DNA of 36,298 bases from Acidobacteriota bacterium. GTDB lineage: Bacteria; Acidobacteriota; Holophagae; Holophagales; Holophagaceae. Positions 1 to 22,372 of this stretch are shown here, piece by piece (position 1 is the first letter of the stretch; each line of letters opens with the position of its first letter). A program made the translations under genes and the position numbers. The stretch covers positions 1-36,298 of the forward strand of contig JACQZU010000008.1 in assembly GCA_016213735.1 (NCBI GenBank), written 5' to 3'. The notes below the pieces were generated by a model. It ran no database searches. It was not told the DNA's origin and saw only the letters and a list, made by a program, of their open reading frames with translations.

Positions 1-90
1 CCGCTCTGGTGGAGTGGGTGCCGCCCGGCCCTTGTGGCAGCCTCTCCGAAAATCACACCCTGGACGCGATGAGGGGTTCTCGTCTCCGTT

Positions 91-118
91 TGCGCTTGAA
101 GGAGCAGGAGGCAACACC
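91..118 (+). promoter_or_regulatory. Conserved leader with doubled Shine-Dalgarno, RP1
   Basis: The 28 bases before the ATG contain TGCGCTTGAAGGAGC followed by AGGAGGCAACACC. Two overlapping ribosome-binding cores (AGGAG and AGGAGG) sit side by side. The same block recurs before the other four repeat genes, whereas the DNA further upstream has diverged, so it is likely a translation signal under selection. Confidence 0.65.
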
Positions 119-466
119 ATGAACAAGACCCACACCCCCGCCGCGGTCATCCTGAAGACCGCGCTCCGCGGCGGCAGCGTTCCGAGCGGCAAGGACCCTC
201 CGCCCGGCTACAACCACACCCAGCGCGGGCTGGCCAAGGCGTCCAGCGGCCTCACCCTGAAGTCCGGCCTGCGCGGCGGTGGCAGCTATGGCGGGGTCAA
301 GGACCCCCCGTCCGGGTTCAATCACAACCAGCGCGGCTTGGTCAATGCGCCTCGCGGCATCACCCTGAAGACCGGGGTGCGGGGGGGCATCATTCCCACC
401 GGGAAAGAACCTCCGCCGGGCTACAACCACAATCAGCGGGGCCTGGCCAAGACGCAGGATGCCTGA
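119..466 (+). CDS. Repeat protein RP1, three copies of a ~36-residue KTGLRGG/NHNQRGL unit
   Basis: Function unknown. The 115-residue product opens with MNKTHTPAAVI and then consists of three tandem units, each with a basic LKTGLRGG-like block, a Gly-rich linker, a K(D/E)PP(P/S)G turn and an NH(T/N)QRGL block. I chose the ATG at 119 because a strong AGGAGCAGGAGG lies just upstream and the four longer paralogues all begin MNKTH at the same place; the reading frame stays open upstream but that part is not conserved. There is no signal peptide, membrane segment or known domain, and the composition is Gly/Pro/Asn/Arg-rich and basic. It is the first of five related genes. Synonymous differences between units in this frame argue that the peptide is selected. 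It could be a multi-core precursor peptide or a structural repeat protein; neither is shown. Confidence 0.8.
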   Translation: MNKTHTPAAVILKTALRGGSVPSGKDPPPGYNHTQRGLAKASSGLTLKSGLRGGGSYGGVKDPPSGFNHNQRGLVNAPRGITLKTGVRGGIIPTGKEPPPGYNHNQRGLAKTQDA

Positions 467-490
467 TCCCAAACTTGGCGGCACTGGACC

Positions 491-514
491 AAGGGGGGGG
501 CTTTCCCCCCTTTT
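491..514 (+). terminator. G-run/C-run hairpin terminator after RP1
   Basis: AAGGGGGG pairs with CCCCCCTT across a short GGCTTT loop and is followed by T residues, the form of an intrinsic terminator. It lies 25 bases after the stop codon of RP1 and has counterparts after the next three repeat genes. Confidence 0.7.
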
Positions 515-609
515 CATTGTCGAGGCTCCTTCTGGGAGCCCCGGGCCCTGGCGGTGGTGGCGAATCCGGAAACCTTTTTTGGGGGAAGTGATGGAATTCC
601 TGCTCCCCC

Positions 610-637
610 TGCGCTCGTAGGAGAAGGAGGCAATACC
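610..637 (+). promoter_or_regulatory. Conserved leader with doubled Shine-Dalgarno, RP2
   Basis: TGCGCTCGTAGGAGAAGGAGG plus CAATACC directly precedes the start codon. It is identical to the leader of RP3 and differs from that of RP1 at four of 28 positions. Just upstream, GATGGAATTCC and a CCCCCTGCG stretch are also shared with RP3. Confidence 0.65.
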
Positions 638-1297
638 ATGAACAAGACCCACATCCCCGCCGCGGTCATCCTGAAGACCGCGCTCCGCGGCGGCGGCATT
701 CCGAGCGGCAAGGATCCCCCGTCCGGCTACAACCACAGCCAGCGCGGGCTGCTTCGGCAGCCGCAGGGCATGACCCTGAGGACCGGTCTTCACGGCGGAA
801 TCGTTCCCACCAGTGGGAAGGATCCCCCCGCCGGCTACAACCACAACCAGCGTGGGCTTCTCCGGACTCCCAAGGGTGTCGAGCTGTCCACGCGCCTGCG
901 CTGCGGAATGGGCGGCTGGGGCGGGACCAAGGATCCTCCGTCCGGCAGCAACCACAACCAGCGCGGGATGCTCCGCCAACCGCAGGGTGTTTCCTTGAAG
1001 ACCGGCCTGCGCGGCGGCAGCGGCTTCGGCGGGGCCAAGGATCCCCCATCCGGATTCAACCACAACCAGCGCGGGCTGGCCCAGGCATCGAGTGGCGTCG
1101 TCATGAAAACCGGTGTGCGGGGCGGTTACTGCGGCCCAAAGGGCTACAACCACAACCAGCGCGGTCTGGCGAATACCCCGGTCGGCATCACCCTGAAGAC
1201 TGGGCTGCGCGGCGGCGGCACCTACGGTGGGGTCAGGGATCCCCCGTCCGGCATGAACCACAATCAGCTGGGCCTGGCCAAGACGCAGGATGCCTGA
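638..1297 (+). CDS. Repeat protein RP2, six units
   Basis: Function unknown. The 219-residue product starts MNKTHIPAAVILKT and carries six units. The third is a variant that reads VELSTRLRCGMGGWGG, bringing in a cysteine and a tryptophan. The fifth is shortened (GGYCGPKGYNHNQRGL), has a second cysteine and lacks the KDPPSG turn. The last unit has NHNQLGL where every other copy has QRG. The C-terminus AKTQDA is identical to that of RP1, and the downstream intergenic DNA is also close to that after RP1, so gene plus flank appear to have been duplicated together. The ATG at 638 follows AGGAGAAGGAGG; codons upstream in frame are not conserved. There are no recognisable domains and no secretion signal. 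Confidence 0.8.
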   Translation: MNKTHIPAAVILKTALRGGGIPSGKDPPSGYNHSQRGLLRQPQGMTLRTGLHGGIVPTSGKDPPAGYNHNQRGLLRTPKGVELSTRLRCGMGGWGGTKDPPSGSNHNQRGMLRQPQGVSLKTGLRGGSGFGGAKDPPSGFNHNQRGLAQASSGVVMKTGVRGGYCGPKGYNHNQRGLANTPVGITLKTGLRGGGTYGGVRDPPSGMNHNQLGLAKTQDA

Positions 1298-1321
1298 TCC
1301 CAAACTTGGCGGCACTGGACC

Positions 1322-1344
1322 AAGGGGGGGCTTCCCCCCCTTTT
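1322..1344 (+). terminator. Hairpin terminator after RP2
   Basis: AAGGGGGGG and CCCCCCCTT form a stem around a three-base CTT loop, ending in TTTT. It is the closest relative of the hairpin after RP1, embedded in nearly identical intergenic sequence. Confidence 0.7.
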
Positions 1345-1440
1345 CCTCGCCGAGGCTCTTTCTGGGAGCCCCGGGGCCCTGGCGGTGGTGGCGAATCCGG
1401 AGATTTGTTTTGGGGACGGTGATGGAATTCCGCCGCCCCC

Positions 1441-1468
1441 TGCGCTCGTAGGAGAAGGAGGCAATACC
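1441..1468 (+). promoter_or_regulatory. Conserved leader with doubled Shine-Dalgarno, RP3
   Basis: This 28-base block matches the RP2 leader exactly. Upstream, 1298-1440 is a close copy of 467-609 (the TCCCAAACTTGGCGGC block, the terminator and a GGCTCT...GGGAGCC hairpin), confirming duplication of the whole module. Confidence 0.65.
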
Positions 1469-1927
1469 ATGAACAAGACCCACATCCCCGCCGCGGTCAT
1501 CCTGAAGACCGCGCTCCGCGGCGGCAGCATTCCGAGCGGCAGGGACCCCCCGTCCGGCCTCAACCACAACCAGCGCGGGCTGCTTCGGCAGCCGCAGGGC
1601 ATCACCCTGAGGACCGGTCTTCACGGCGGAATCGTTCCCAGCAGTGGGAAGGATCCCCCGTCCGGTTACAACCACAACCAGCGCGGGCTGCTTCGGAAGC
1701 CGCAGGGCATCACCCTGAGGACCGGTCTTCACGGCGGAATCGTTCCCAGCAATGGGAAGGATCCCCCCGCCGGCTACAACCACAGCCAGCGCGGGCTGCT
1801 TCGCCAGCCGCAGGGCATCACCCTGAGGACCGGTCTCCACGGTGGAATCGTCCCCACCAATGGAAAGGATCCTCCCCCCGGCTACAACCACAATCAACGC
1901 GGACTGGCCAAGGCCACGGCGGATTGA
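1469..1927 (+). CDS. Repeat protein RP3, four units
   Basis: Function unknown. The 152-residue product has the shared MNKTHIPAAVILKTALRGG start and four units. Units two to four are almost identical to one another (ITLRTGLHGGIVP, then a short S/T/N-G-K linker and DPP(S/A/P)GYNH), with His replacing Arg in the RGG block. This is the most homogeneous gene of the set, which suggests recent expansion of one unit by unequal crossing over or gene conversion. The ATG at 1469 is fixed by the AGGAGAAGGAGG leader. The C-terminus AKATAD differs from those of RP1 and RP2. No cysteine, no membrane segment and no known domain are visible. Confidence 0.8.
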   Translation: MNKTHIPAAVILKTALRGGSIPSGRDPPSGLNHNQRGLLRQPQGITLRTGLHGGIVPSSGKDPPSGYNHNQRGLLRKPQGITLRTGLHGGIVPSNGKDPPAGYNHSQRGLLRQPQGITLRTGLHGGIVPTNGKDPPPGYNHNQRGLAKATAD

Positions 1928-1951
1928 CGGCAAACCAGGTGTCACCAGACC

Positions 1952-1976
1952 GAGGGGGGAAGCTTCCCCCCTCTTT
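1952..1976 (+). terminator. Palindromic hairpin terminator after RP3
   Basis: GAGGGGGGAAG followed by CTTCCCCCCTC is a perfect 22-base palindrome, then TTT. The preceding TCACCAGACC is shared with the terminator after RP4, so the RP3 and RP4 3' flanks form a second subtype distinct from RP1/RP2. Confidence 0.65.
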
Positions 1977-2095
1977 CGTCGTCCAAACGCGTCCTGGGGT
2001 GTCCGGGCTTGCGAGATTCCGCAGCGAGCTCGGCGCCACGGAGGGTGGATCACTCGTGAAAATGTTCGGAATGTTGATGGGTCCGGACCTCTCCT

Positions 2096-2123
2096 TGCGC
2101 TTGTAGGAGCAGGAGGCAACACC
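2096..2123 (+). promoter_or_regulatory. Conserved leader with doubled Shine-Dalgarno, RP4
   Basis: TGCGCTTGTAGGAGCAGGAGG plus CAACACC precedes the ATG. It differs from the RP1 leader by one base, although the 100 bases further upstream do not align with RP1-RP3. Confidence 0.65.
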
Positions 2124-3017
2124 ATGAACAAGACTCACATCTCCGCCGCCGTCATCGTGAAGACCGCGCTCCGCGGCGGCGGCACCTACGGCGGCACCAA
2201 GGATCCTCCGTCCGGCTACAACCACAACCAGCGGGGGCTTCTCCGGACCCCCAAGGGTGTCGAGCTGTCCACGCGCCTGCGCTGCGGGATGGGCGGGTGG
2301 GGCGGCACCAAGGATCCCCCGTCCGGCTACAACCACAGCCAGCGCGGGCTGGCCAAGGCGCCGAGCGGCATCACCCTTAAGACCGGTCTCCGCGGCGGCG
2401 GCACTTACGGCGGCACCAAGGATCCCCCGTCCGGCTCCAACCACAACCAGCGCGGCCTGCTCAAGGCGGCCACCGGCGTTGCCCTGAAGACCGGCCTGCG
2501 TGGCGGAGCCGGAACCGGTTACGGCGGAATCAAGGATCCCCCGTCCGGAAACAATCACAGCCAGCGCGGGCTTCTCCGGACCCCCAAGGGTGTCGAGCTG
2601 TCCACGCGCCTGCGCTGCGGGATGGGCGGGTGGGGCGGCACCAAGGATCCCCCGTCCGGCTACAACCACAGCCAGCGCGGGCTGGCGAAGGCGCAGGCCG
2701 GCGTCACCCTGAAGACCGGTTTGCGCGGCGGTGGCAGCTACGGCGGTGTCAAGGATCCTCCGTCCGGTTTAAATCACAGCCAGCGAGGCCTGGCCAAGGC
2801 ACCCAACGGCATCACGCTGAAGACCGGGCTGCGCGGCGGCGGCAGCTACGGCGGAGCCAAAGATCCTCCGTCCGGGTACAACCACAACCAGCGGGGAATG
2901 GCAAAGGCGCAGGCGGGCCTCACCCTGAAGACCGGCGTGCGGGGCGGCATCCTCAAGGAACCCCCGCCAGGCCTCAACCACAACCAGCGCGGTTTGGCAA
3001 AGGCGAAGGCTGCCTGA
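2124..3017 (+). CDS. Repeat protein RP4, eight units
   Basis: Function unknown. At 297 residues this is the longest member, with eight units after MNKTHISAAVIVKTALRGG. The Cys/Trp variant unit (VELSTRLRCGMGGWGG) occurs twice, as units two and five. The DNA around these copies, 2235-2353 and 2568-2686, is identical as far as I can read, offset by 333 bases or three units. Most other units read (I/V/L)TLKTGLRGGGSYGG or GGGTYGG, then KDPPSG and N-H-(N/S)-QRG. The last unit is shortened (VRGGILKEPPPGLNHNQRGL) and the protein ends AKAKAA. The ATG at 2124 follows AGGAGCAGGAGG. An open frame continues upstream to 1842 but covers the RP3 tail and its terminator, so I discount it. Confidence 0.8.
   Translation: MNKTHISAAVIVKTALRGGGTYGGTKDPPSGYNHNQRGLLRTPKGVELSTRLRCGMGGWGGTKDPPSGYNHSQRGLAKAPSGITLKTGLRGGGTYGGTKDPPSGSNHNQRGLLKAATGVALKTGLRGGAGTGYGGIKDPPSGNNHSQRGLLRTPKGVELSTRLRCGMGGWGGTKDPPSGYNHSQRGLAKAQAGVTLKTGLRGGGSYGGVKDPPSGLNHSQRGLAKAPNGITLKTGLRGGGSYGGAKDPPSGYNHNQRGMAKAQAGLTLKTGVRGGILKEPPPGLNHNQRGLAKAKAA
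2235..2353 (+). repeat. Long exact direct repeat, copy 1 (in RP4)
   Basis: About 119 bases encoding the end of one unit, the Cys/Trp variant block and the start of the next. I find no difference from 2568-2686. A slightly diverged copy lies in RP2 from about 854 to 946. Identity at third codon positions points to a recent copy event. Confidence 0.75.
2568..2686 (+). repeat. Long exact direct repeat, copy 2 (in RP4)
   Basis: Second copy of the block at 2235-2353, displaced by 333 bases, exactly three 111-base units, so the reading frame and unit register are preserved. Confidence 0.75.
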
Positions 3018-3040
3018 CCCGGACCTTGCATCACCAGACC

Positions 3041-3063
3041 GAGGGGGGCGCGCTCCCCCCTTT
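3041..3063 (+). terminator. Hairpin terminator after RP4
   Basis: GAGGGGGG, a CGCGCT loop, CCCCCC and TTT follow the stop codon by 23 bases. It shares the TCACCAGACC upstream block and the TTTCGTCGTC downstream block with the RP3 terminator. Confidence 0.65.
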
Positions 3064-3197
3064 CGTCGTCGAGGATCCGCGCAGGATCATTTGGGTGCGC
3101 TTGTGGATGGCATTTGGACTGCGTCGCGGCTCGATCCTGGCAGCACTGGCGCATTCATAGACCTTTTTCGAGGCGCTGATGGATTCCCAACTCCCCC

Positions 3198-3224
3198 TGC
3201 GCTTGAAGGAGTAGGAGGCACGAC
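3198..3224 (+). promoter_or_regulatory. Conserved leader with doubled Shine-Dalgarno, RP5
   Basis: TGCGCTTGAAGGAGTAGGAGG plus CACGAC precedes the GTG. It is the most divergent copy (27 bases) but keeps both AGGAG cores, and the CTGATGG and CTCCCCCTGCG blocks upstream match those before RP2. Confidence 0.6.
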
Positions 3225-3374
3225 GTGAGCAGCCATCAGACCATCAACAACCGCCCCTCCGGCATCAACCTGAAGACCGGCCTGCGCGGGGGCGGCAGTT
3301 ATGGCGGGGCCAAGGATCCTCCGTCAGGTCTCAACCACAACCAGCGCGGGCTCGGGGTCGCCACCAAGGGGTGA
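3225..3374 (+). CDS. Repeat protein RP5, single-unit member with GTG start
   Basis: A 49-residue product with a GTG start (M-SSHQTINNRPSG) followed by one unit (INLKTGLRGGGSYGG, then AKDPPSG and LNHNQRGL) and a short GVATKG tail. The start is set by the shared AGGAGTAGGAGGCA leader five bases upstream. The N-terminus differs from MNKTH in all the other members, and there is no G/C-run terminator afterwards; instead the TPR gene starts 100 bases later. It may be the minimal functional form of the family or a decayed remnant. Its clean frame, conserved leader and intact unit favour a working gene. Confidence 0.7.
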   Translation: MSSHQTINNRPSGINLKTGLRGGGSYGGAKDPPSGLNHNQRGLGVATKG

Positions 3375-3474: not shown

Positions 3475-4554
3475 ATGGATGCCGTCGAACTGCACAACTC
3501 CGCCTGGGAGCACCACGAGGCGGGGCGCTTTCCCGAAGCCCGCGCGGCGCTGGAGCAGGCCATCGCCCTGTTCGAACGGACCGATGGACCCGACAGCGCG
3601 GACGTCGCCAACCTGGTCACCGACCTGGCGGTGATGCTGGAGGACACCAACGACTACCCCGCCGCCGAACGCACCGCGAGGCGGGCGCTGGCGATCCTGC
3701 AGCGCTTCGAGAAAGGGGAGGAGGCCCTGGCGCCGATCCGGATGCGCGCCCATGGCGTCCTCTCGATCACCCTGCGGGCCGTGGGACGGGTCCCCGAAGC
3801 GCGGGCGGAGATCGAGCAGGCGGTGCAGGTCGCCGAAGGGCAGTTCGGGCCGGATCATGCCATGACGGCCTCGGCGCTGACCGGCCTGGGGATGTATTTC
3901 AAGTACAGTGGCGAATTCGACCAGGCGGAAGCGGCTTACCGGCGGGCGATCGGAATCCTCGAGGGTCTGCACGGGGCCGACACGCCGTACCTCGCCAACC
4001 TGTACCACAACATGGGCGGACTCTTGCATGCGCGGGAGGACTACGCGGGGGCCGAGCCCTGGGCCCGGCGGGCCTTCGAGGTGCGGCGGGCCGCCCTCGG
4101 CGAGGACCACCAGGCCACGGTCTCGGACGCCGTGGCGCTGGCCGGCGTGCTGGATGGCCTGGGTCCCAGTGCCGAGTCGGAGGCGATCTACCGGCGGGCG
4201 CTGCAGTTCTGGTCCGGACTCTTCGGGGAGGAGCACCACGAGGTGGCCACCACCCTGCACAGTCTGGCGGCCCTCCGCCGGGATCTCGGGGATCCCGAGG
4301 AGGCGGAGGCCTTGTTCAGCCGGGCCTACCGGATGAAGGTGAAGCTGCTGGGTGAACAGAGCCCCGACACGGCCTTGTCGGCCGCCTGCCTCGCCCAACT
4401 GCTCCATCGGAAGGGACGCCATGCCGAGGCCGCAGGCCTTTGCACGAGGGCCCTCCAGGCCTACGAGGCCAATTGCCACCCGGACCACCCGGAAAGGACG
4501 GCCTGCCAGGGACTGATGGACCGCATCCAGGCTCGGCTGTCCGCTGGCGCCTGA
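3475..4554 (+). CDS. Tetratricopeptide-repeat protein (kinesin light chain type)
   Basis: A 359-residue, all-helical scaffold of about seven to eight 42-residue TPRs. Hallmarks are repeated (Y/L)xxA(L/E/I)xIxExxxGxxHPxTAxxLxxLA-like stretches, such as the blocks around GPDSADVANL, GPDHAMTASAL, GADTPYLANLYHN, GEDHQATVSDA and GEQSPDTALSA. This spacing is that of the TPR_10/TPR_12 kinesin-light-chain class, which usually binds peptides. No catalytic, membrane or export segment is visible, so it is probably cytoplasmic. The ATG at 3475 follows AGGTGA by four bases. It lies 100 bases after RP5 in the same direction, without a clear terminator between them, so a role in binding the repeat peptides is possible but inferred from position only. 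Confidence 0.85.
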   Translation: MDAVELHNSAWEHHEAGRFPEARAALEQAIALFERTDGPDSADVANLVTDLAVMLEDTNDYPAAERTARRALAILQRFEKGEEALAPIRMRAHGVLSITLRAVGRVPEARAEIEQAVQVAEGQFGPDHAMTASALTGLGMYFKYSGEFDQAEAAYRRAIGILEGLHGADTPYLANLYHNMGGLLHAREDYAGAEPWARRAFEVRRAALGEDHQATVSDAVALAGVLDGLGPSAESEAIYRRALQFWSGLFGEEHHEVATTLHSLAALRRDLGDPEEAEALFSRAYRMKVKLLGEQSPDTALSAACLAQLLHRKGRHAEAAGLCTRALQAYEANCHPDHPERTACQGLMDRIQARLSAGA

Positions 4555-10059: not shown

Positions 10060-10077
10060 CCCCTATTGGAGGTTTCC

Positions 10078-13017
10078 ATGCGTCCTTTCCCCCTCATCGT
10101 CTCTTCGGCCAGCCTGTTCCTGGCTCTTTCCATGACCCACTGCGGCGGAGGAGGAGGCGGGGGTGCCACCCCCCAGCCAGTTCCCGATCCGCAGATTTCC
10201 TCCTTCGGGCCGGCCAAGGCCACCATCAGCGCAGGGGAGGCGACCACCCTCACTGGTGTGTTCTCCAACGGCACCGGCACGGTTGACCAGGGGGTCGGCG
10301 CGGTCCAGAGCGGCACCGCGGTCACCACTGGAACCCTCACCAGCAGCAAGACCTTCACTTTGACGGTGACCAACACCGCCGGGAAAAGCACCACCTCCCA
10401 GGCCACGGTCAACGTCCTGGCGGCGCCGGTGATCAGCAGCTTCACCGCCAGTCCCGCCACCCTGACGACGGGAGAGAACACCCTGCTGACCTGGACCGTC
10501 TCGGGGGCCACGTCCCTGTCCCTGAACCAGGGCATCAATGACGTGACCGGAACGAGCAGCCGCACCGTCACCCCGCCGCAAGGGACGACCACCTACACCC
10601 TCACCGCCACCAACGCGGCCGGGGGCAGCAGCACGGCTTCGGTGACCGTCCAGGCGGTTCCCGCGCCGACGATCGCCAGTTTCACCTCTGCAAGCAGGAC
10701 CTTCGGGTTCTTCCAGGGCACCACCTTGACCGCCCAGTTCAGCGGCGGCGTGGGCACGCTCCTGCCGGGCAACATCCCGGTTCTCAGCGGGATCCCCGTG
10801 CCCGTTTCGCGCACCACGGCCTCGCGCTTTGTCCTCAGGGTGACCAACGCCGCCGGGCGGATCGCCACCAGCAGCCTGGTCGGTTTCCAGCCGGGCTCTG
10901 CCGTTGCGGCCGGGGACCGGTTCAGCATCTTCCTGAAGGCCGATGGAAGCGTGTGGAGCACGGGGTACAACTTCAACGGCCAGCTTGGCGACGGCAGCCT
11001 CCTCGACCGGGGCGCTCCCGTCGCGGTGCAGGGCATGACGGGCTGCCTCGCGGTGGCCACCGGGGCCTACCACGGAATGGCCCTCAAGCAGGACGGAACG
11101 GTCTGGACCTGGGGCTGGAATCAGTCCGGCCAGCTGGGGGACGGCACCAACACCGACCGGAATTCGCCCGTCATGGTCCCCGGCCTGACGAACGTGATCG
11201 CCATCAGCGCCGGCCAGCTCCACGGTCTGGCCCTGCGCCAGGACGGCACCCTCTGGACCTGGGGCGCCAACCACGCCGGCCAGCTCGGGGATGGGAGCAC
11301 CACCTACCGGCCCACGGCGGCCCCCGTGCCCGGGCTGACCGGCGTGGTCGGAATGGCTGGGGGTTGGGGGCACACCCTCGCCCTCAAGGAGGACGGCACC
11401 GTCGTGGCCTTCGGGGCCAACGCCCAGGGCCAGTTGGGCCTCGGCAGCACCGCCAACAGCCTGGTGCCCCTGCCGGTCCCCGGCCTGACCGGGGTGGTCC
11501 GCCTCGGTTCGGGAAACTACAGCAGTTATGCCCTCAAGGCGGACGGCAGCATGGTCGCCTGGGGGGACAACACCCACTCGCAGCTCGGGGACGGCACGAC
11601 GATTCAACGGAACGCCCCGGTTCAAGTCACTGGTTTGAATGAGATTACGATTCTGGCCACCGGAAGCACCAATGGTCACTTCCTCGCCGCTGCCCTCGAC
11701 GGAGGCATCTACGCCTGGGGCCGGAATGACTTCGGCCAGCTCGGGGTGGGTGACCTGGTGAATCGCAACGTGGCCACCCTGCAGGGGTCCGGGGCTCCGA
11801 CGCCGGCCGCCCTCGCCGCGGGAATGTATTTCACCCTGGAACTTGGCCACGACGGCATCCTGACCGCTGCGGGAAGCAATTCCTCCGGCCAGCTCGGCGC
11901 CGGGGTCGCTCCGTGGAGAAACGCGCCGGCCCCCATTCCTGGGCTGGCCGCGAACACCACGCCCTGGACCGGGGGGAGCCGCAGCTGGAACGGATTCGCG
12001 ATTCTGCCCGACGGGACGCTCAAGAGCTGGGGGATGGGGGGCTATGGCGTAACCGGGGATGGGAACATGGCGGACCACTCCGTGCCGGCGACAGTTCCAG
12101 GGGTCTCCGGGGTTGCCGCCATGGCCGCCGGTGTGAGCCATGCGCTGGCCCTGAAGGCCGATGGGACCGTGCTGGCCTGGGGCTGGAACCACAAGGGCCA
12201 GCTTGGAGACGGAACCACGACGAACCGCACCGCTCCGGCCCCGGTCCCCGGACTGTTGGGAGTCATCGCCATCGCCGCGTCGGTGTACGCCAGCTTCGCC
12301 CTGAAGAGCGACGGGACCGTCTGGGCCTGGGGGTCCAACGGATATTCGGAACTTGGCGGAGGCCCTGCCCCGGCCCAGCGGACCGAACCCTACCAGGTTC
12401 CCGGACTCGGCGGCGTCACCGCCATCTCCGCCGGCGACGGACACGTCCTGGTCCGGAAGAGTGACGGCACCGTGTGGGCCTGGGGCTACAACTACTACGG
12501 CCAGATCGGGGATGGAACGACGGTCTCCCGCAGCGCCCCCTACCAGGTTCCTGGACTCTCCGACATGATTGCCGTGTCCGCCGGGATGAATGAAAGCTAC
12601 GCCCTGAACGCGGATGGATCGGTCTGGGCCTGGGGTGCGGACTTTGCAGGGCAGATGGGAGACGGGGCGCCCGCGGCGAATCGGCTCTCCCCCTTCCAGG
12701 TTCCCGGAATCGGCGGGGTGGCCTCCATCCACGCTGGCAACGGCTTCCTCCTCGCACTCAAGAGCGACGGCAGCGTCTGGGGCTGGGGCTGGAACACCTA
12801 CGGTCAGCTCGGGGATGGGACCAACACGAACCGCAATGCTCCGGCGCCCACGGGCCTCACGGGAGTCCTGAGCCTTTCCGTCGGCAGCAGCTATGTCGTG
12901 GCGGTCAAGTCCGATCACACCCTGGTGTCCTGGGGGGCCGACTCCTACGGACAGCTGGCCTCGGGGAGGGCCCTGCGGTTCCAGGTGCCCACGAGCTTCC
13001 CTGTGGATCTCTGGTAG
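10078..13017 (+). CDS. Large putative lipoprotein with Ig-like domains and 14 RCC1 repeats
   Basis: 979 residues. A hydrophobic signal ([14 protein letters not shown]) ends at Cys22 followed by seven glycines, a spacer typical of surface lipoproteins, although the THC box is a poor match to a standard lipobox. Residues about 37-285 form three Ig-like beta domains ([30 protein letters not shown] and [13 protein letters not shown] starts, each ending in a TLTVTNxAG-like strand). From about 290 to the end there are 14 RCC1 units with the signature DGTVWxWGxNxxGQLGDGT. Since one RCC1 propeller uses seven units, this fits two propellers. The ATG at 10078 has GGAGG at good spacing. Likely cell-surface binding or adhesion; ligand unknown. 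It stands alone in its orientation. Confidence 0.88.
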
Positions 13018-13360: not shown

Positions 13361-15277
13361 ATGCCCCTCCAGGTGCGCCTCCCCGATGACTCCATCCGGC
13401 AACTGCCGGACGGGGCCACCGGGACCACCCTGGCGGAAAGCATCGGTCCCAGGTTGGCCGAGGCGGCCCTGGGGGTCCGCCTGGACGGCGGGAAGCTGCA
13501 GGATCTGGGAACCCCCCTCTTGGATGGGCAGAAGGTCGCCATCGTCACCAGCAAGGACCCCGAAGCCCTGGACCTGCTCCGGCACTCGACGGCCCACCTC
13601 CTCGCGCAGGCGGTGAAGAGGCTTTTCCCCGCCGCCAAGGTGGGGATCGGGCCCGTGATCGAGGATGGCTTCTACTACGACTTCCTGGTGGAAAAGGCCT
13701 TCACCCCCGAGGACCTGGCCGCCATCGAGGCCGAGATGATGCGCATTTCGCGTGAGGACCTGCCCGTCGTCCGGGAGGAGATGCCCCGCAACGCTGCCGT
13801 GGAGCGTTTCCGAGCGATGGGCGAACAGCTCAAGGTGGAAGTGGTATCCGACATTCCGGAGGGCGAGACCATCAGCGGTTATCGCCAGGGGGACTTCTAT
13901 GACCTCTGCCGGGGACCCCATGTGCCCAGCACGGGGAAACTCAAGGCCTTCAAGCTCCTCCACACCGCCGGCGCCTACTGGAAGGGGGACGAGCGGAATC
14001 CCATGTTGTGCCGGATCTACGGCACCGCATGGTTCTCCCAGAAGGACCTGGAGGAGCACCTGAAGCGCCTCGAGGAGGCCAAGGCCCGGGATCACAGGAA
14101 GCTCGGGCGGGAGCTGGACCTCTATTCCTTCCACCCCGAGGCCCCCGCCTCGCCCTTCTTCCACCCCAAGGGGACCGTGGTCTACAACGCCCTGGTGGAC
14201 TACATCCGGGAGCTGTACCACAAGTACGGGTACCGCGAGGTGATCACGCCCCAGATCCTGGACGTTTCATTGTGGAAGACCAGCGGACATTACGAGAACT
14301 ACGCCGAGAACATGTACTTCACCACCGCCGAGGAGCGGGAGTACGCGGTGAAGCCCATGAACTGCCCCGGGCACTGCCTGCTCTTCGGGAGCGCCAAGCG
14401 CAGCTACCGGGAGCTTCCGATGCGCATCGCGGACTTCGGCAGGCTCCACCGCTTCGAACGAAGCGGCGTGACCCACGGCCTGACGCGGGTGCGGACCTTC
14501 TGCCAGGACGACGCCCACCTGTTCTGCGAACCTGAGCACATCAAGGAGGAAATGGCCTCCTTCCTCGCCCTACTGAAGGAGGTCTACGACACCTTCGGCT
14601 TCCACGAGATGCGCGTGGCGCTCTCCACCCGCCCCGAAAAACGCCTGGGTTCGGACGAGGTCTGGGATGCGGGCGAGAAGGCCCTGGCCGACGCCATGAC
14701 CGAGGCGGGCATGGCCTTCACCCTGAATCCGGGCGAGGGTGCCTTCTACGGGCCCAAGATCGAGTTCCAGATCCTGGACGCCCTGCGCCGCCCGTGGCAG
14801 CTGGGGACCCTCCAGGTGGACTACATGCTCCCCGAGCGCTTCAAGCTCCGCTACACCCGGGCCGACGGACACGAGGGACAGCCCGTCATGCTCCACCGGG
14901 CCATCCTGGGAAGCCTGGAAAGGTTCATGGGAATCCTGGTGGAGCACACGGCCGGGGCCTTCCCTGTCTGGCTGGCGCCGGTCCAGGCGGCCATCCTTCC
15001 CATCACCGACCGCGCCCACGCCTATGCCCGGCAGGTCCAGGAGGAAGCCCAGGCCCTCGGCCTCCGGACCGACCTGGACCTGCGCAACGAGAAGATCAAC
15101 GCCAAAATCCGGGACCACCAGCTGATGAAGGTGCCCTACATGCTGGTCCTCGGAGACCGGGAAGCCGCGGCGGCCCAGGTTTCCGTCCGGCACCGGCACG
15201 CAGGGGACCAGGGCGTGACCCCCACCGCCGCGTTCCTGGAGCGGCTCCGGGACGAGGCCCGGACCAGGGCCCATTGA
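13361..15277 (+). CDS. thrS: Threonyl-tRNA synthetase
   Basis: 638 residues, the usual length. It charges tRNA-Thr with threonine using ATP. Domains in order: TGS (1-62), the editing domain with its HSTAH zinc-like motif at about residue 75 and GPVIEDGFYYDF, then the class II catalytic core with MNCPGHC (about 333; Cys is a zinc ligand), motif 2 (RFERSGVTHGLTRVRTFCQDD), motif 3 (HRAILGSLERFMG) and a C-terminal anticodon-binding domain starting near PVWLAPVQ. The ATG at 13361 follows TAGGAGCC. It heads the thrS-infC-rpmI-rplT-pheST order known from many bacteria, but infC and rplT have promoters of their own here. Confidence 0.98.
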   Translation: MPLQVRLPDDSIRQLPDGATGTTLAESIGPRLAEAALGVRLDGGKLQDLGTPLLDGQKVAIVTSKDPEALDLLRHSTAHLLAQAVKRLFPAAKVGIGPVIEDGFYYDFLVEKAFTPEDLAAIEAEMMRISREDLPVVREEMPRNAAVERFRAMGEQLKVEVVSDIPEGETISGYRQGDFYDLCRGPHVPSTGKLKAFKLLHTAGAYWKGDERNPMLCRIYGTAWFSQKDLEEHLKRLEEAKARDHRKLGRELDLYSFHPEAPASPFFHPKGTVVYNALVDYIRELYHKYGYREVITPQILDVSLWKTSGHYENYAENMYFTTAEEREYAVKPMNCPGHCLLFGSAKRSYRELPMRIADFGRLHRFERSGVTHGLTRVRTFCQDDAHLFCEPEHIKEEMASFLALLKEVYDTFGFHEMRVALSTRPEKRLGSDEVWDAGEKALADAMTEAGMAFTLNPGEGAFYGPKIEFQILDALRRPWQLGTLQVDYMLPERFKLRYTRADGHEGQPVMLHRAILGSLERFMGILVEHTAGAFPVWLAPVQAAILPITDRAHAYARQVQEEAQALGLRTDLDLRNEKINAKIRDHQLMKVPYMLVLGDREAAAAQVSVRHRHAGDQGVTPTAAFLERLRDEARTRAH

Positions 15278-15285
15278 ACTTCCCA

Positions 15286-15314
15286 TTGGAAGACAAAGGG
15301 GCTGCTGGTAGACT
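15286..15314 (+). promoter_or_regulatory. Likely infC promoter
   Basis: TTGGAA, a 17-base spacer and TAGACT, beginning nine bases after the thrS stop. This is the best-matched promoter I can see in the window. The transcript would start near 15321 with a leader of about 24 bases. Confidence 0.6.
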
Positions 15315-15344
15315 CAATGTCCTTGTCTTTGTAGGGGGTTGACC

Positions 15345-15917
15345 ATTCGGGCAAACGAAACTCGCATCAACGACGGCATCCGGAGCCCGGAGGTCCGCGT
15401 CATTTCAGAGGATGGCGAACAGCTTGGGGTGATGAGCCCCGCCCAGGCCATCCGGATCGCGGAGGAGAAGGGCCTGGACCTGGTGGAGGTGGCCTCCAAT
15501 GCCAACCCCCCGGTTTGCCGGATCATGGACTACGGCAAGTACAAGTTCATGGAAGCCAAGCGGGAGCACGCGGCCCGGGCCAAACAAAAAAACATCGTGG
15601 TCAAGGAAGTCAAATTCCGCATCCGCACCGATGACCACGATTTCGACTTCAAGGTGCGGCACATACTCCGATTCCTGGAGGAGGGCGACAAGGTCAAAGT
15701 GGTGGTGATGTTCCGCGGCCGCGAGGTGGTTCACCGCGACCTCGGATTCAAGATCTTCGATGAGGTGCTGGCCCGAGTGGCCGAACACTGCGTCGTCGAG
15801 AAGCCGGCCGGCATTGACGGTCGCGACATGCACGCCATCATCGCCCCCAAGCCCGTGGATCCCAAGGCCAAGAAGCTCAAGGAATCCAAACCAGCCCCCG
15901 AAGCCCAGAACGCATAG
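15345..15917 (+). CDS. infC: Translation initiation factor IF-3, AUU start
   Basis: 190 residues. IF-3 binds the 30S subunit, prevents premature joining of 50S and checks the start codon. The N domain ([16 protein letters not shown], then [20 protein letters not shown]) and C domain ([33 protein letters not shown]) are intact, and a Lys/Pro/Ala tail extends the end. I chose ATT at 15345 as start: AGGGGG ends six bases before it, while the in-frame TTG at 15339 directly abuts the same Shine-Dalgarno and there is no ATG or GTG nearby. AUU is the known autoregulated infC start in Escherichia coli. Confidence 0.93.
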
Positions 15918-15934
15918 CCACCCAGAGGCCCGCC

Positions 15935-16132
15935 ATGCCCAAGCTCAAGACCCACAAGGGCGCCCAGAAGCGCTTCAAGAAGACCGGAACCGGCAAGTTC
16001 AAGCGCGGCTGCTCCCACCAGCGGCACATCCTCACGAGCAAGACCGCCAAGAGAAAGCGCCAGTTGGACATGGGCGGCGCGGTGGACAAGGCCGACCTGG
16101 CCTCCGTCCGGGAAATGCTGCCCTACGCCTGA
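15935..16132 (+). CDS. rpmI: 50S ribosomal protein L35
   Basis: 65 residues, [24 protein letters not shown]..., with the conserved MPKxKTxxxAxKRFKxTGxGK start and a HxLxxKxxKRKRxL centre. It is a small basic protein of the large ribosomal subunit. It starts 17 bases after infC and is probably on the same transcript. Unusually, a 186-base gap with strong hairpins separates it from rplT. Confidence 0.97.
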
Positions 16133-16140
16133 GCTTCTCC

Positions 16141-16169
16141 GGGGGGCACCGCCTTCGGCTCGGCCCCCC
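16141..16169 (+). terminator. Hairpin after rpmI
   Basis: GGGGGGC and GCCCCCC enclose an inner GCC-TTC-GGC hairpin. It is followed by C-rich rather than T-rich sequence, so it may attenuate or protect the infC-rpmI mRNA end instead of being a classic terminator. A second hairpin, CGGGC-GGA-GCCCG, lies at 16188-16200. Confidence 0.45.
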
Positions 16170-16208
16170 CGACCCCCGCGTCCCTCGCGGGCGGAGCCCG
16201 CTCGGGGC

Positions 16209-16237
16209 TTCCACAAGGGGGACAACAGGCCTAGAAT
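16209..16237 (+). promoter_or_regulatory. Likely rplT promoter
   Basis: TTCCAC, a 17-base spacer and TAGAAT in an otherwise GC-rich gap. It would give rplT a transcript independent of rpmI with a leader of about 75 bases. Confidence 0.5.
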
Positions 16238-16318
16238 ATTCAGTTCAACCCGGGGGCCGAGGCCACCCCCGATGAGGCTCCCAAAGCTCCCTGAGCTGCC
16301 TCGAGGAAAGGAAAGACC

Positions 16319-16666
16319 ATGACCCGCGTCAAACGTGGCTTCAAGCGAGTCCAGCGCCGCAAGCGGATGCTCAAATTCGCCAAGGGTTTCTACGGCGCCA
16401 AGTCCCGCCTCTACCGTTCAGCGAAAGAGGCGGTGGAAAAAGCGCTCGGATATGCCTACCGTGGCCGGAAGGAGCGCAAGCGTGATTTCCGCAGCCTCTG
16501 GATCGTCCGCATCAATGCGGCCTGTGCCCAGAATGGAACCTCCTATTCCAAGTTCATGGGAGGCCTGAAGAAGGCCAAGGTCACCCTGGACCGGAAGGTC
16601 CTGGCCGATCTGGCGGTGCGGAATCCCGAAGCCTTTAGCAAGCTCGTTCTGGTGGCCAAGGACTGA
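16319..16666 (+). CDS. rplT: 50S ribosomal protein L20
   Basis: 115 residues, with the typical [58 protein letters not shown] core and the C-terminal IVRINAA...YSxFMxGLKKA domain. It is essential for early 50S assembly and in other bacteria represses its own operon by binding the leader RNA. GAGGAAAGGAAAG precedes the ATG. The length is normal. Confidence 0.97.
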
Positions 16667-16700
16667 ACGAGCCAGACCCCCGATCCAACCCGTTCAATCT

Positions 16701-16722
16701 CAAGGCCGCATCCGCGGCCTTG
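16701..16722 (+). terminator. Hairpin between rplT and pheS
   Basis: CAAGGCCGC, an ATCC loop and GCGGCCTTG form a perfect nine-pair stem 34 bases after rplT, followed by ACTTGTCT. It may terminate rplT transcription or act as a pheST attenuator; no Phe-rich leader peptide is visible, which weakens the second option. Confidence 0.45.
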
Positions 16723-16740
16723 ACTTGTCTAGAGACGACG

Positions 16741-17865
16741 ATGGAAACCCTGAACGACACCCTGCAGGCGGGTCTGGCGGCGATGACGGATGCGCCGCTC
16801 CGGGCAAAGCTGCTCCGCATGCTGGAGGCCCAGGGCGAGTTCGAGGTCCAGCTCGCCGCCTGCGGGAGCATTGACGAGTGCCAGCGCCTCAAGGGACGGT
16901 TCCTGGGCAGGACCGAGAGCCTGGCCGCCGAAGCCATGACGGCCATGAAGGCCATTCCTGCCGAGCACAAAAGAAGCCTCGGCGGGGAAATCAACCGGAT
17001 CAAGGCGGCCTGGGAGGAAGCCCTCCGTGCCCGGCAGATCTCCCTGGAAACGCGCCAGAAATCCCAGGCCTCCTCCTCCACCGCCTGGGATCCGGACCTG
17101 CCCCCCCCCACGCCCGCCCGAGGGTCCCTGAATCCCCTGGTCCGCCTCATGGACCGCCTCGTGGAAGTCTTCAGGCCCCTGGGCTTTCACGTCGAAGAGG
17201 GGCCCGAGGTGGAGACGGAGGAGCACAATTTCGACGGGCTCAACATTCCCGAGGATCACCCGGCCCGGGGGAGCACCGACACCTTCCACTTCTCGAAGCA
17301 CCCGGGCCTGGTCCTCCGGACCCACACCAGTCCGGTCCAGGTGCGCACGCTCAAGAGGGTGGCGCCCCACTTGGAGGCCCTGGGGGGGATCCGCTTCCTG
17401 GCCCCGGGACGGGTGTACCGCAAGGACGAGATCGATCCCACCCACAGCCCCATGTTCCACCAGGTGGAAGGGCTGCTCGTCGGTCACGGCATCGGGATGC
17501 ACCACCTGAAGGGCACCCTGGGCCATGCCATGAAGGGCCTCTTCGGACCGGGCGCGGAGGTGCGCTTCAGGCCCAGCTACTTCCCCTTCGTGGAGCCCGG
17601 CTGCGAGATGGATGTCCGCTGCCCGCTGTGCGGAGGAGGAGGTTGCCGCGTCTGCAAGGGATCGGGGTGGGTGGAAATCCTGGGCGCCGGCCTCGTGCAC
17701 CCCAACGTGCTCCGCCATGCGGGCATCGACCCGGATGTCTGGTCGGGCTTCGCCTTCGGCATGGGCATCGAGCGCATCGCCATGATGGTCAGCCAGACCC
17801 CGGATCTGCGGCTCTTCTTCGAAAACGACCAGCGCTTCCTTCGCGCCATGGGGGGGGTGGACTGA
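16741..17865 (+). CDS. pheS: Phenylalanyl-tRNA synthetase alpha subunit
   Basis: 374 residues. It is the catalytic subunit of the alpha2-beta2 enzyme that charges tRNA-Phe. The N-terminal coiled coil is followed by the class II core: HPLVRLMDRLVEVFRPLGFxVEEGPEVE-like start (here NPLVRLMD), FNFDGLNIPEDHPAR-like segment, TxxVQVRxL, GRVYRKDEIDPTHSPMFHQVEG (motif 2) and GFAFGMGIERIAMM (motif 3). The ATG at 16741 gives the usual N-terminus; the frame is open a little further upstream without a better start. A Cys-rich insert (CPLCGGGGCRVCKGSGW) near residue 295 may bind zinc. The stop overlaps the pheT start (TGATG). Confidence 0.96.
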   Translation: METLNDTLQAGLAAMTDAPLRAKLLRMLEAQGEFEVQLAACGSIDECQRLKGRFLGRTESLAAEAMTAMKAIPAEHKRSLGGEINRIKAAWEEALRARQISLETRQKSQASSSTAWDPDLPPPTPARGSLNPLVRLMDRLVEVFRPLGFHVEEGPEVETEEHNFDGLNIPEDHPARGSTDTFHFSKHPGLVLRTHTSPVQVRTLKRVAPHLEALGGIRFLAPGRVYRKDEIDPTHSPMFHQVEGLLVGHGIGMHHLKGTLGHAMKGLFGPGAEVRFRPSYFPFVEPGCEMDVRCPLCGGGGCRVCKGSGWVEILGAGLVHPNVLRHAGIDPDVWSGFAFGMGIERIAMMVSQTPDLRLFFENDQRFLRAMGGVD

Positions 17866-19799
17866 TGCGCATCGAACGGGCAGCGCTTCACGCCGAACTC
17901 CCTGTCCTCTCCGACATGGAGACCCCGGCCCTCTGCGAACTCCTGGCGGGGCTCGGTTTCCCAGTGGACGCCGTGGAAGGCTTCGAGGGAACGACGGTCC
18001 TCGAGGTGGACGTCACTCCCAACCGGGGGGACGCCATGAGCCACCGCGGTCTGGCCCGGGACCTCAGCGCCAAGCTGCTGGCGGACCTGAGCCCAGTGCC
18101 ATTCCTCCCCGTGACGGAATTGCACGAGGGCCTCCGTCCCATCATCCTGGAATCCGAAGCCTGCCCCTGCTACGCCAGCGCAATCCTGGAACTGGGATCC
18201 CGGCAGGAGACGCCGACCGAGGTCCAGGCCTTCCTTCGCGCCATGGGCTCCTCCCCAAAGAACCTCGCCGCGGTGGACGCTTCCAACGAGCTCCTCCACC
18301 GCTACGGGCACCCCACCCACGCCTTCGACGAGGAGCGCCTCCAGGGGGCCATCCGGGTCCGGAAGGCACGGAAAGGAGAATCCTTCCTCGGACTGGACGG
18401 GGTGACCCGGACCCTCTCGGGGGACGATCTGGTGATCGCGGACGACTCCGGCGCCATCGCCCTCGCGGGCGTGATCGGGGGGGAGGCGACGAAGGTCACG
18501 GAAGGCACTCGGCGGGTCCTTCTGGAATCCGCCTGGTTCGACCCGAAGGGCGTTCGGCTGGCCGCCAGGCGTCACGGCATCTTCACGGATGCCTCCCACC
18601 GCTTCGGACGGGGAGCGGATCCGGCCATGGCCCGCATCGCCAGGGACCTGCTCCTCCGCCGGCTGGAGGCCTGGGCGGGGGCCAGGGTCCTGGGGGCTTG
18701 GTGCGTGGGGAAGATGCCCGCCGAAGCCCCTCCCATCGCGTTCCCGAAGGACCTGCTCCAGCGAATCGCCGGAGAGCCGCTCCGGGTGGCGGTGGCCTCG
18801 GAATGGCTTCAGCACCTCGGCTGCCGGGTGCAGGGGGAACCGGGGGTTCTCCACGTCACACCGCCCTCCTGGCGCCACGACCTGACCTCCCCAGAGGACC
18901 TGGCCGAGGAAGTGCTACGCATCCGTGGCTACGACAAAATCCCCTCAGCCTTGCCGCCCCTCGAAGGCTCTCCGCTGCCCCTGGCGGATGGCTACCGCAG
19001 GGCCAGGAGCCTGGGCCTCCGGATGGCCCACCTGGGGTTCCATCAAACCGTGACCTTCGGCTTCGTGTCCCCCGAGGAGGACGCGGCCTCCTCGGAATCC
19101 CCAGCGGAAGGAAGAACCCTGGGAAATCCTCTCGGCATCGAATTCTCCGTCATGCGGGCTTCCCTCCTGGGCTCCCTGCGGAAGGCCGCCGAATCGAACT
19201 TGAAGCACGGCGCCCGCCAGGTCCGTCTCTTCGAGATCGCGCCGGTGTACAGGACCGCGCCGTCCGGGCCCCTGGAGATCCCGAGCCTGGGCGTCGTGTG
19301 GGGCGGGCAGCTGGGCGGGGAGGACCCCTACACCCCCACACGGCCCGTGGGGGCGGCCGACCTCAGGGGGATCGCCCTGGACCTGGGGCTCAGGCCCGAA
19401 CATTGCATCTTCCGGGTCCTGGGGGAGGATCTCTTCGGGCTCGAATGCCCCCTGGACGCCCTGCCTTGGGGCGGGGCCCAGGTGATCCCTTCCTACCGAC
19501 CCTTCAGCCGCTTCCCGGCGGTGCACAGGGACCTGTCCCTCCTGGTGGCGGTGGACCATCCCTACCGGGGCCTCGCGGATGCCATGGCGGCCAGGGTCCA
19601 GGAGCTCGGGGCCCCCCTCCAGGATCTCCGCTGCGTGGACGTGTTCCGCCCCAAAGGCCCGCCGCCAGGCAAGGTGGCCTGGTTGTTCCGTTTCAGCTTC
19701 CAGCACCCGGGGGAGACCCTGACCCATGGCGACGTGGACCGGTGGATGAATGCCGCCCTCGACACCGCCCGGGCCCAGGGCGCGGAACTGCGAGGTTAG
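17865..19799 (+). CDS. pheT: Phenylalanyl-tRNA synthetase beta subunit, short form
   Basis: 644 residues, about 150 shorter than Escherichia coli PheT. The start ATG shares a base with the pheS stop. The protein goes from the N-terminal helix region (LCELLAGLGFPVDAVEGFEG) straight to VTPNRGDAMSHRGLARDL at residue 50; the EMAP-II-like tRNA-binding domain that normally lies between these is absent. The B3/B4 editing domain (HPTHAFDEERLQGAIRVRKA, VIGGEATKVTEGTRRVLLES, RHGIFTDASHRFGRGADP), the B5 domain (PPSWRHDLTSPEDLAEEVLRIRGYDKIP), the catalytic-like core and the C-terminal FDX-ACB anticodon domain (RFPAVHRDLSLLV to the end) are present. The gene therefore looks functional, with a lineage-specific domain loss. 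Confidence 0.95.
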   Translation: MRIERAALHAELPVLSDMETPALCELLAGLGFPVDAVEGFEGTTVLEVDVTPNRGDAMSHRGLARDLSAKLLADLSPVPFLPVTELHEGLRPIILESEACPCYASAILELGSRQETPTEVQAFLRAMGSSPKNLAAVDASNELLHRYGHPTHAFDEERLQGAIRVRKARKGESFLGLDGVTRTLSGDDLVIADDSGAIALAGVIGGEATKVTEGTRRVLLESAWFDPKGVRLAARRHGIFTDASHRFGRGADPAMARIARDLLLRRLEAWAGARVLGAWCVGKMPAEAPPIAFPKDLLQRIAGEPLRVAVASEWLQHLGCRVQGEPGVLHVTPPSWRHDLTSPEDLAEEVLRIRGYDKIPSALPPLEGSPLPLADGYRRARSLGLRMAHLGFHQTVTFGFVSPEEDAASSESPAEGRTLGNPLGIEFSVMRASLLGSLRKAAESNLKHGARQVRLFEIAPVYRTAPSGPLEIPSLGVVWGGQLGGEDPYTPTRPVGAADLRGIALDLGLRPEHCIFRVLGEDLFGLECPLDALPWGGAQVIPSYRPFSRFPAVHRDLSLLVAVDHPYRGLADAMAARVQELGAPLQDLRCVDVFRPKGPPPGKVAWLFRFSFQHPGETLTHGDVDRWMNAALDTARAQGAELRG

Positions 19800-19819
19800 A
19801 CTTGGGGGGCGGAGTACCC

Positions 19820-20056
19820 ATGGACGTCCTGAAACAGCTCGAAGCCAAACTCCGAGCCCTGGTCGAACAGCGCAACCGCCTCCAGCAGGAACTCGAGGCC
19901 GCGACCCGGGGCCGGGACGCCGAGCGGGGGGACCTGGAAGACCTTCGCCGCCGCCTGGAGGCCTCGGAAGCGGAGCGGAAGGCCCTGGCCGCCGAGCGCG
20001 AACAGACCCGCAAGGACGTTGAACAGATCCTGAAGCTCCTGAAGGGGGTGGGATGA
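19820..20056 (+). CDS. Coiled-coil protein, ZapB-like
   Basis: 78 residues, almost entirely one coiled coil (MDVLKQLEAKLRALVEQRNRLQQEL...), ending VEQILKLLKGVG. GGCGGAG lies eight bases before the ATG and the stop overlaps the zapA start (ATGA). Length, heptads and position next to zapA fit a ZapB-type cell-division protein that bundles the Z-ring through ZapA, but coiled coils match many families by chance. Confidence 0.75.
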   Translation: MDVLKQLEAKLRALVEQRNRLQQELEAATRGRDAERGDLEDLRRRLEASEAERKALAAEREQTRKDVEQILKLLKGVG

Positions 20057-20427
20057 AACCGGGCTCCTGGGAGGCGGTGACCCATCGCATGGATCCGGAA
20101 GGCGTCACCATCGAGGTCCTCGGGCGGCCCCTGCGGCTGCACAACCAACAGGACCCCGTGGCCCTCCGGGAAGCCGTCGAAATCCTGGAACGGAGCTTCC
20201 GGGACATGGAGGAGGCCTATCGGCTAAGATGGGGCTGCCCCCCGTCGGCCCAGGACACAACGACCTGGCTGCTGCTCGGGGCCCTGAACCTGGCGTACCG
20301 CATTGGGCGCCTCGAACAGGAAGCCACCAGGCAAACCAAGGATTTGGAAATCACCCTTTCCAAGCTGCTCGATGACGTTCCCGTGGACAACCCCCCGCCC
20401 AAGCCCCTCCTGGAAGAGGGCGAGTAG
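20053..20427 (+). CDS. zapA: Cell division protein ZapA
   Basis: 124 residues. ZapA binds FtsZ and stabilises the Z-ring at midcell. The N-terminal VTIEVLGRPLRLHNQQDPVALREAVEILERSFRDME carries the I-x-I-x-G-x-x-x-x-(I/L) strand and the first helix, followed by a TWLLLGALNLAYRIGRLEQEATRQ coiled-coil helix. Position between a ZapB-like gene and a 6S-like RNA followed by rny agrees with this. The start overlaps the preceding stop. Confidence 0.85.
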   Translation: MKPGSWEAVTHRMDPEGVTIEVLGRPLRLHNQQDPVALREAVEILERSFRDMEEAYRLRWGCPPSAQDTTTWLLLGALNLAYRIGRLEQEATRQTKDLEITLSKLLDDVPVDNPPPKPLLEEGE

Positions 20428-20558
20428 GGACGTTCCGGGGGCGCTCCCCATCCCTGCGAGGCCCGTGAGACGGCCAGGCGCTTGTTCCGTACGTACCAAC
20501 GGGAGGCCTTCCCCCGGGCTTGTGCGCGCCGCGCGTCGGAGCGCCTGCACCCGGGTCC
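20428..20558 (+). ncRNA. ssrS: Possible 6S RNA
   Basis: The intergenic sequence after zapA can fold into a long rod. GGAC pairs with GTCC, CCGGG (20435-20439) with CCCGG (20550-20554), and GGCGCTCC (20440-20447) with GGAGCGCC (20538-20545). This leaves a large internal bubble and an upper stem (GGCGC 20477-20481 with GCGCC 20526-20530) capped by a CGGGAGG/CCCCCG hairpin. A closed stem with central bubble is the 6S RNA shape that mimics an open promoter for the housekeeping RNA polymerase, and ssrS next to zapA is a known arrangement. At about 131 bases it is short for 6S, so the ends are uncertain. Confidence 0.5.
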
Positions 20559-20569
20559 GCCCCGCGCAA

Positions 20570-22315: not shown

Positions 22316-22318
22316 GCC

Positions 22319-22348: not shown

Positions 22349-22372
22349 TCACCGAAACCCCTGGAGGGCGGC

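Follow-up and report, generated by a model that had tools for sequence, protein, structure and literature searches.

A repeat-gene array beside a C39-peptidase exporter cluster in an Acidobacteriota bacterium: candidate multi-unit precursors of secreted peptides

What might be the role of five consecutive genes that encode almost nothing but copies of one short peptide unit? This question is raised by a stretch of 36,298 nucleotides from an Acidobacteriota bacterium (assembly GCA_016213735.1, contig JACQZU010000008.1), referred to here as the window, in which five such repeat genes (A to E) lie near the left end. A first-pass annotation made from the DNA letters alone had counted 3, 6, 4, 8 and 1 units (22 in total) in the five proteins, and our analysis reproduced these counts exactly; together with a sixth, one-unit gene that we found on another contig of the same genome, C5, the total is 23. 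Each unit opens with a ten-residue motif, (I/V/L)xLKTGLRGG, which ends in GG in 20 of the 23 units and in CG in the other three; in relatives, these two positions are mostly AG. Canonical double-glycine leaders have GG, GA or AG there. Scans of Pfam and NCBIfam with the repeat proteins and their relatives, as well as with 24 of the mini-peptides described below, produced no credible family score, in agreement with the earlier statement that the proteins contain no known domain, and one mini-peptide brushed PF12559 (Inhibitor_I10) at 2.9e-4. On the evidence presented below, we consider it probable, at roughly two chances in three, that the six genes encode cytoplasmic precursors of secreted peptides, which would be exported by an adjacent trio of transport proteins, with a C39 peptidase domain cutting the precursors at each unit.

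The repeats are under selection as protein. When conserved blocks were compared between units, with all units but the one on C5 included (22 of 23), the pairwise ratio of nonsynonymous to synonymous change (dN/dS) was ~0.2, although dN, and with it the absolute ratio, is biased downward because the blocks were picked by their peptide pattern. The differences at codon positions 1, 2 and 3 numbered 625, 595 and 1741, respectively, so that the mostly silent third-position changes noticed in the first-pass annotation were borne out, and a control with the two wrong frames, which is unaffected by the choice of blocks, yielded pN/pS of 1.5-1.8. The strong repetition at the DNA level could also be taken to mean that these are non-coding or decaying tandem repeats, but this explanation is contradicted by the dN/dS, the third-position bias and the lack of internal stops, as well as by a ribosome-binding site at every gene and by conserved relatives, and we regard it as vanishingly improbable.

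The window coincides with the start of contig C26, that is, with a contig end, and the DNA to the left of base 1, to which the first-pass annotation had drawn attention, proved informative. Joining the window to C5 through a terminal overlap (Table 1) adds an exporter, putative regulators and the sixth repeat gene, in the order extracytoplasmic function (ECF) sigma factor, Ser/Thr kinase with a PD40 propeller, Ser/Thr kinase with tetratricopeptide repeats (TPRs), HlyD, C39-peptidase ATP-binding cassette (ABC) protein, second ABC protein and repeat gene (MNKTHTPAGVILKTAVRGGSVPSTRDPPPGYNHNQRGLAKAHEA), all on one strand. The peptidase domain of the first ABC protein (residues 1-150 of L023:8124-10742) matches PF03412 (5.5e-19) and retains the catalytic residues Q12, C18, H98 and D114 (A2 alignment), as do 81 of 87 relatives for the Q/C/H/D set, and the second ABC protein lacks the C39 cysteine. 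On the window side, the repeat genes are followed by a gene for a TPR protein whose closest solved relatives are kinesin light chain TPR domains (9.8e-64). Weak hits in a further contig of this genome, C16, turned out to be ordinary or overlapping frames.

A profile built from six C39-ABC proteins retrieved 290 relatives in named genomes of many phyla, of which the best 80 were kept. The exporter clade is present in Acidobacteria, Chloroflexi, gamma- and deltaproteobacteria, Nitrosomonas, Nitrospira, myxobacteria and others; within the phylum, homologues of the second ABC protein turned up in 7 of 297 genomes, counting the genome under study. Across 87 exporter loci, the only recurrent genes are those for both ABC proteins and HlyD; thus, of the neighbours that had been suggested as worth looking for, a transporter and a peptidase recur, whereas radical SAM, ribosomally synthesized and post-translationally modified peptide (RiPP) recognition element and ATP-grasp genes do not, and no modifying enzyme or maturase of the kind that defines a RiPP is recurrent at these loci. 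Two of the loci (L064 and L036) were counted although their open reading frames (ORFs) are truncated or fused.

The exporter loci are rich in very short genes that start with ATG, are preceded by a ribosome-binding site and encode the motif (K/R)(T/S/V)x(L/V/I)(K/R)(A/G)G. We found 79 such mini-ORFs, spread over 37 of 86 loci, whereas first-order shuffles would give 2.4; all of them lie within 8 kb, and 68 share the strand of the exporter. In 50 of the 79, the motif ends exactly at residue 10, the typical product being MKVKTNVKAG followed by a short tail, which is the pattern that a short leader with its cargo would give. The shortest product, MKVKTNVKAGSVNWG, has 15 residues; at an Anaerolineae exporter locus, its ORF occurs in three identical tandem copies (L059:5896-6157), with a predicted cargo of five residues. 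Two arrays at another locus (L046:14088-19434) encode peptides of 16-25 residues in which a KTNIKAG leader is followed by a tail containing Cys (PHGCGSGGCMHAA type), and a Chloroflexi locus (L109:44-6531) encodes six Cys-rich peptides of 58-98 residues with the same leader motif as in the mini-peptides. A search of the genome under study found no free MKxK(T/S) mini-peptides.

We then asked how the repeat units compare with these leaders, scoring all decapeptides in the six repeat proteins with 42 leaders that came exclusively from loci without repeat genes of the window's type (NHN-type). The 23 unit motifs, and nothing else, occupied the top 23 of 822 positions (area under the curve 1.0), so that a ten-residue motif of the MKVKTNVKAG class precedes the tail in every unit. 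This rank test replaced an earlier one with a position-specific scoring matrix, which used a 99.99% cut-off against the proteins' own composition, matched only 2 of the 23 units and was too strict.

Genomic linkage points in the same direction. NHN-type repeat genes are present at 10 of 86 exporter loci, the highest unit count being 16 (L040), and at one of these loci, L038, a unit closely resembles that of the window, SLKTGVRAGGYGGTKDPPAGTNHTQRG. Peptides of the form KT.(V/L)(K/R)(A/G)G...NHNQ, which the first-pass annotation had placed in cyanobacteria and myxobacteria, do exist, mainly in Acidobacteria. L037 and L038 conserve the order repeat gene, TPR gene, sigma factor, kinase, HlyD, ABC, ABC. 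A homologue of the TPR gene accompanies 9 of the 10 NHN loci as opposed to 1 of the 76 other exporter loci (p = 2e-10), although L110/L114 and L037/L038 are near relatives and the independent events are fewer than the counts. When 396 genomes from the phylum were screened with a repeat-only profile, it matched only the genome under study and one other, G357, in which a protein with four VRTGVKAGGPxLQHNK units is encoded between a kinase gene and a TPR gene, followed by HlyD, ABC1 and ABC2, in a cluster that also contains a sigma gene; in this sample, therefore, the repeat genes are rare and none was found away from an exporter. Less productive than the exporter and profile searches were a direct scan of genome contigs using the repeat alignment, which gave no relatives, and a single-sequence query of 60 related genomes, which matched only the genome under study. 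Export through the C39/HlyD/ABC system is well supported. At one locus without a TPR homologue (L087:6218-7681), about ten small genes of one or two units (KVKTQVKGGG...LNHNERML) lie in a row, so that single cores are arrayed here in place of a polyprotein.

How would such precursors be processed? C39 domains bind a leader that precedes a double glycine and cleave behind the glycine pair (PMC6959990). Given a G at position -1, G or C at -2 and a hydrophobic residue at -4, along with the intact catalytic residues, cleavage at the motif is the straightforward reading, and its match to the free-standing leader of the mini-peptides makes the (L)KT.LRGG block the likely site of recognition and cleavage. 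Under the proposed scheme, the decapeptide of each unit would act as an in-line equivalent of the MKVKTNVKAG leader, the adjacent trio would export the precursor, and the C39 domain would cut after each GG; that it would do so at every unit is suggested by the repetition of the motif and by the one-unit genes that lie beside multi-unit ones. A precursor of n units would then yield n peptides, the internal ones of ~30-38 residues (GSYGGVKDPPSGYNHNQRGL...LKTGLRGG) and the last of ~22-26, and the TPR protein could serve to bind the basic repeats, or the peptides made from them, or to escort them. Among the roles offered in the first-pass annotation, this favours a precursor with several cores and an RGG-type block (KT.LRGG) as the processing site; the NHNQRG block, offered there as an alternative site, lies instead in the tail, or core.

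Several points weigh against this interpretation. Classic double-glycine leaders carry L(-12), E(-8) and L(-7) (PMC6959990); the unit motif has none of these and so is not a canonical leader of that kind, and three units have CG in place of GG. If every unit were cut, each internal peptide would, oddly, end in a leader motif. The pattern used for the mini-ORFs was seeded by the finding itself, although the leader test drew on independent loci. Finally, the uniform unit lengths of some relatives would equally suit a repeat fold that is never cut.

This last point leads to an alternative in which only the N-terminal motif is removed and the remainder is exported whole as a basic extracellular repeat protein, perhaps as part of a matrix or fibre, or to bind polyanions. 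All the repeat proteins are strongly basic (pI 10.6-12), unit spacing is constant in L037, L040, L043 and L135, and an AlphaFold2 model, considered with a functional amyloid or beta-solenoid in mind, resembles a beta-solenoid with two strands per unit, with weak beta-helix matches, none at E <= 0.001. That model, of the gene D product, has a pLDDT of 60, however, and the five models disagree (60 to 34.5), which makes it too poor to use; networks of this type are prone to drawing solenoids on repeats. Unit length in the window also varies from 30 to 38 residues, with a linker deletion in unit B5, one-unit genes exist in the window, on C5 and at L087 and L032, and the tails of mini-peptides can be as short as 5 residues. 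We consider an uncut protein unlikely, keeping it in view because unit lengths are constant in several relatives and the model, poor as it is, is beta-rich.

If the products are indeed peptides released by the C39 domain, they could be bacteriocins or microcins directed at neighbouring bacteria. C39/HlyD exporters are classically associated with bacteriocins (PMC3140520), and many divergent copies are present at each locus. Yet no immunity gene recurs at the exporter loci, and the tails (PP, NHNQRG) are conserved under purifying selection rather than diversified, those of some relatives comprising only 5 residues, which makes antibacterial activity a quite improbable function. Nothing was found in support of another early suggestion, a toxin or antigen array that varies by unit shuffling.

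The neighbouring kinases and sigma factor, which would control expression of the system, suggest a different use of the peptides, one that extends the proposal of C39-processed, exported peptides and does not compete with it. Membrane kinases might sense the peptides and phosphorylate the ECF sigma factor, which in turn would drive the peptide genes. In both C5 kinases, a single hydrophobic transmembrane helix precedes a sensor-like domain (the propeller or the TPRs, predicted to be periplasmic). The sigma factor (P0001; TIGR02999, Sig-70_X6, 2.1e-62) carries QPTA in place of the canonical ECF motif DAED, with Thr at the third place; the corresponding motif of EcfP is STTA, the second Thr of which is phosphorylated by a neighbouring kinase (PMC8999054). 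The sigma gene is found at 6 of 10 NHN loci compared with 4 of 76 other loci, and an element, TTTT-N(4-12)-TGATSGA, precedes genes B, C and E, as well as the repeat genes of L037 and L038, and occurs nowhere else in the joined contig, L037 or L038 (0.075 expected per 49 kb); the pattern was defined after the sites had been inspected and is only a lead. On the other hand, the sigma gene is missing from some NHN loci, the Thr is absent in L110, L114 and L046, and the kinases may respond to something else. The sigma motif, kinases and upstream element would allow a peptide-sensing circuit, and autocrine signalling seems to us a tentative and rather unlikely idea; the full polyprotein-pheromone circuit, in which C39-cut repeats would act on receptor kinases that phosphorylate region 2.2 of the sigma factor, which would switch on the peptide genes through the shared upstream element, is unlikely as a whole. 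At L046, the two peptide arrays described above flank a kinase and an ECF sigma factor, one on either side.

C39-exported leader peptides are already known as a kind, and the present system shares with peptidase-containing ABC transporters and their double-glycine peptides an exporter with an intact C39 domain, short precursors nearby, and a motif with G at -1, a small residue at -2 and a hydrophobic one at -4. It differs in its ten-residue leader, (M/L)KVKTNVKAG, with K/R at -7 and -3 and a hydrophobic residue at -8, and in the recurrence of the motif ahead of every unit in the repeat genes. The NHLM/NHLP systems likewise combine HlyD, a peptidase-ABC and a second ABC protein, but the models TIGR03794, TIGR03796 and TIGR03797 score far below their cut-offs here (36.8/156, 175.7/853 and 86.7/709, respectively), and there is no NHLP or Nif11 leader. 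Multi-core RiPPs, such as cyanobactins, multi-core microviridins and plant and fungal examples (PMC5934393), also have several similar cores per precursor; here, in contrast, no modifying enzyme recurs and every core comes with its own copy of the leader-like motif. As in the ECF sigma factors activated by Ser/Thr protein kinases (STPKs), namely ECF43, EcfP/PknT and EcfK/PknS, a kinase gene adjoins the sigma gene and a Thr is present in the 2.2 motif (QPTA versus STTA), but here the sigma factor is linked to a peptide exporter, and its family match is TIGR02999. Unlike kinesin light chain, the TPR protein is bacterial, stands alone and adjoins repeat genes.

The leader class, its repetition within precursors and its linkage to TPR, kinase and sigma genes did not turn up in Pfam, NCBIfam or the literature searched, and a literature search on NHNQ precursor peptides and KTNVKAG-type strings found none. 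This looks like a widespread, undescribed type of secreted-peptide system. If so, one exporter clade would serve a large class of very short peptides, overlooked by annotation on account of their length of 15-60 residues and the lack of a matching model, and the repeat precursors would be to bacteria what polyprotein hormones are to eukaryotes, each unit bearing its own copy of the leader signal. With kinases and an ECF sigma factor linked to the cluster, a role in peptide sensing can be tested directly, in a setting where the signal of STPK/ECF pairs is seldom known.

The architecture of the array indicates how it grew. Every repeat gene has a conserved 5' region containing a strong ribosome-binding site, and a conserved G6/C6 hairpin with a T run lies 3' of genes A-D and of the C5 repeat gene (Table 1). 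With its own 5' region for each gene and its own hairpin for most, duplication acted on whole gene cassettes, as well as on units within genes. The three CG units, which alone carry a Cys at the predicted cleavage site, are near-identical and look like recent duplicates.

Table 1. Features of the repeat-gene array and its surroundings (window positions, except for the cluster on C5)
Feature	Position	Strand	Remarks
Overlap with right end of contig C5	1..95	+	95 identical bp, only two occurrences genome-wide
Conserved 5' region, gene A	70..118	+	TGAGGG, then TGCGCTTGAAGGAGCAGGAGGCAACACC
Repeat-precursor gene A	119..466	+	3 units, MNKTHTPAAVILKTALRGG start
Terminator-like hairpin 3' of gene A	491..512	+	
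Conserved 5' region, gene B	589..637	+	TGATGG, then TGCGCTCGTAGGAGAAGGAGGCAATACC; TTTTTT ahead, as in L037, L038
Repeat-precursor gene B	638..1297	+	6 units
CG-for-GG unit B3	807-941		LSTRLRCGMGGWGG
Terminator-like hairpin 3' of gene B	1324..1339	+	
Conserved 5' region, gene C	1420..1468	+	
Repeat-precursor gene C	1469..1927	+	4 units
Terminator-like hairpin 3' of gene C	1954..1970	+	
Conserved 5' region, gene D	2075..2123	+	
Repeat-precursor gene D	2124..3017	+	8 units
CG-for-GG unit D2	2259-2348		LSTRLRCGMGGWGG
CG-for-GG unit D5	2592-2681		LSTRLRCGMGGWGG
G/C hairpin 3' of gene D	3043..3060	+	visible in alignment, not called by scan
Conserved 5' region, gene E	3177..3224	+	
Repeat-precursor gene E	3225..3374	+	1 unit, GTG start, different N-terminus (MSSHQTINNRPSGINLKTGLRGG)
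Kinesin-light-chain-type TPR protein	3475..4554	+	no predicted membrane helix
C5 cluster: sigma factor, two kinases, HlyD, C39-ABC, second ABC, sixth repeat gene	L023:626-13026		

Some of the exporter loci encode other candidate products. L037 (15232-15951) and L038 (14465-16204) contain peptides with a longer leader, MKNNTILNAADLLTAKTSVRAG, and a tail of 5-8 residues, a second precursor type beside the NHN repeats. A 626-residue protein with no Pfam match (L105:5416-7293) is found at 7 loci; its 744-residue neighbour (L105:2505-4736) is a MauG-type di-haem protein. Farther along the window, positions 10066-13017 encode a 983-residue protein composed largely of RCC1 repeats, and positions 13361-29621 contain housekeeping genes, namely ThrRS, PheS, RNase Y, AlaRS, PurH-type and NuoG-type.

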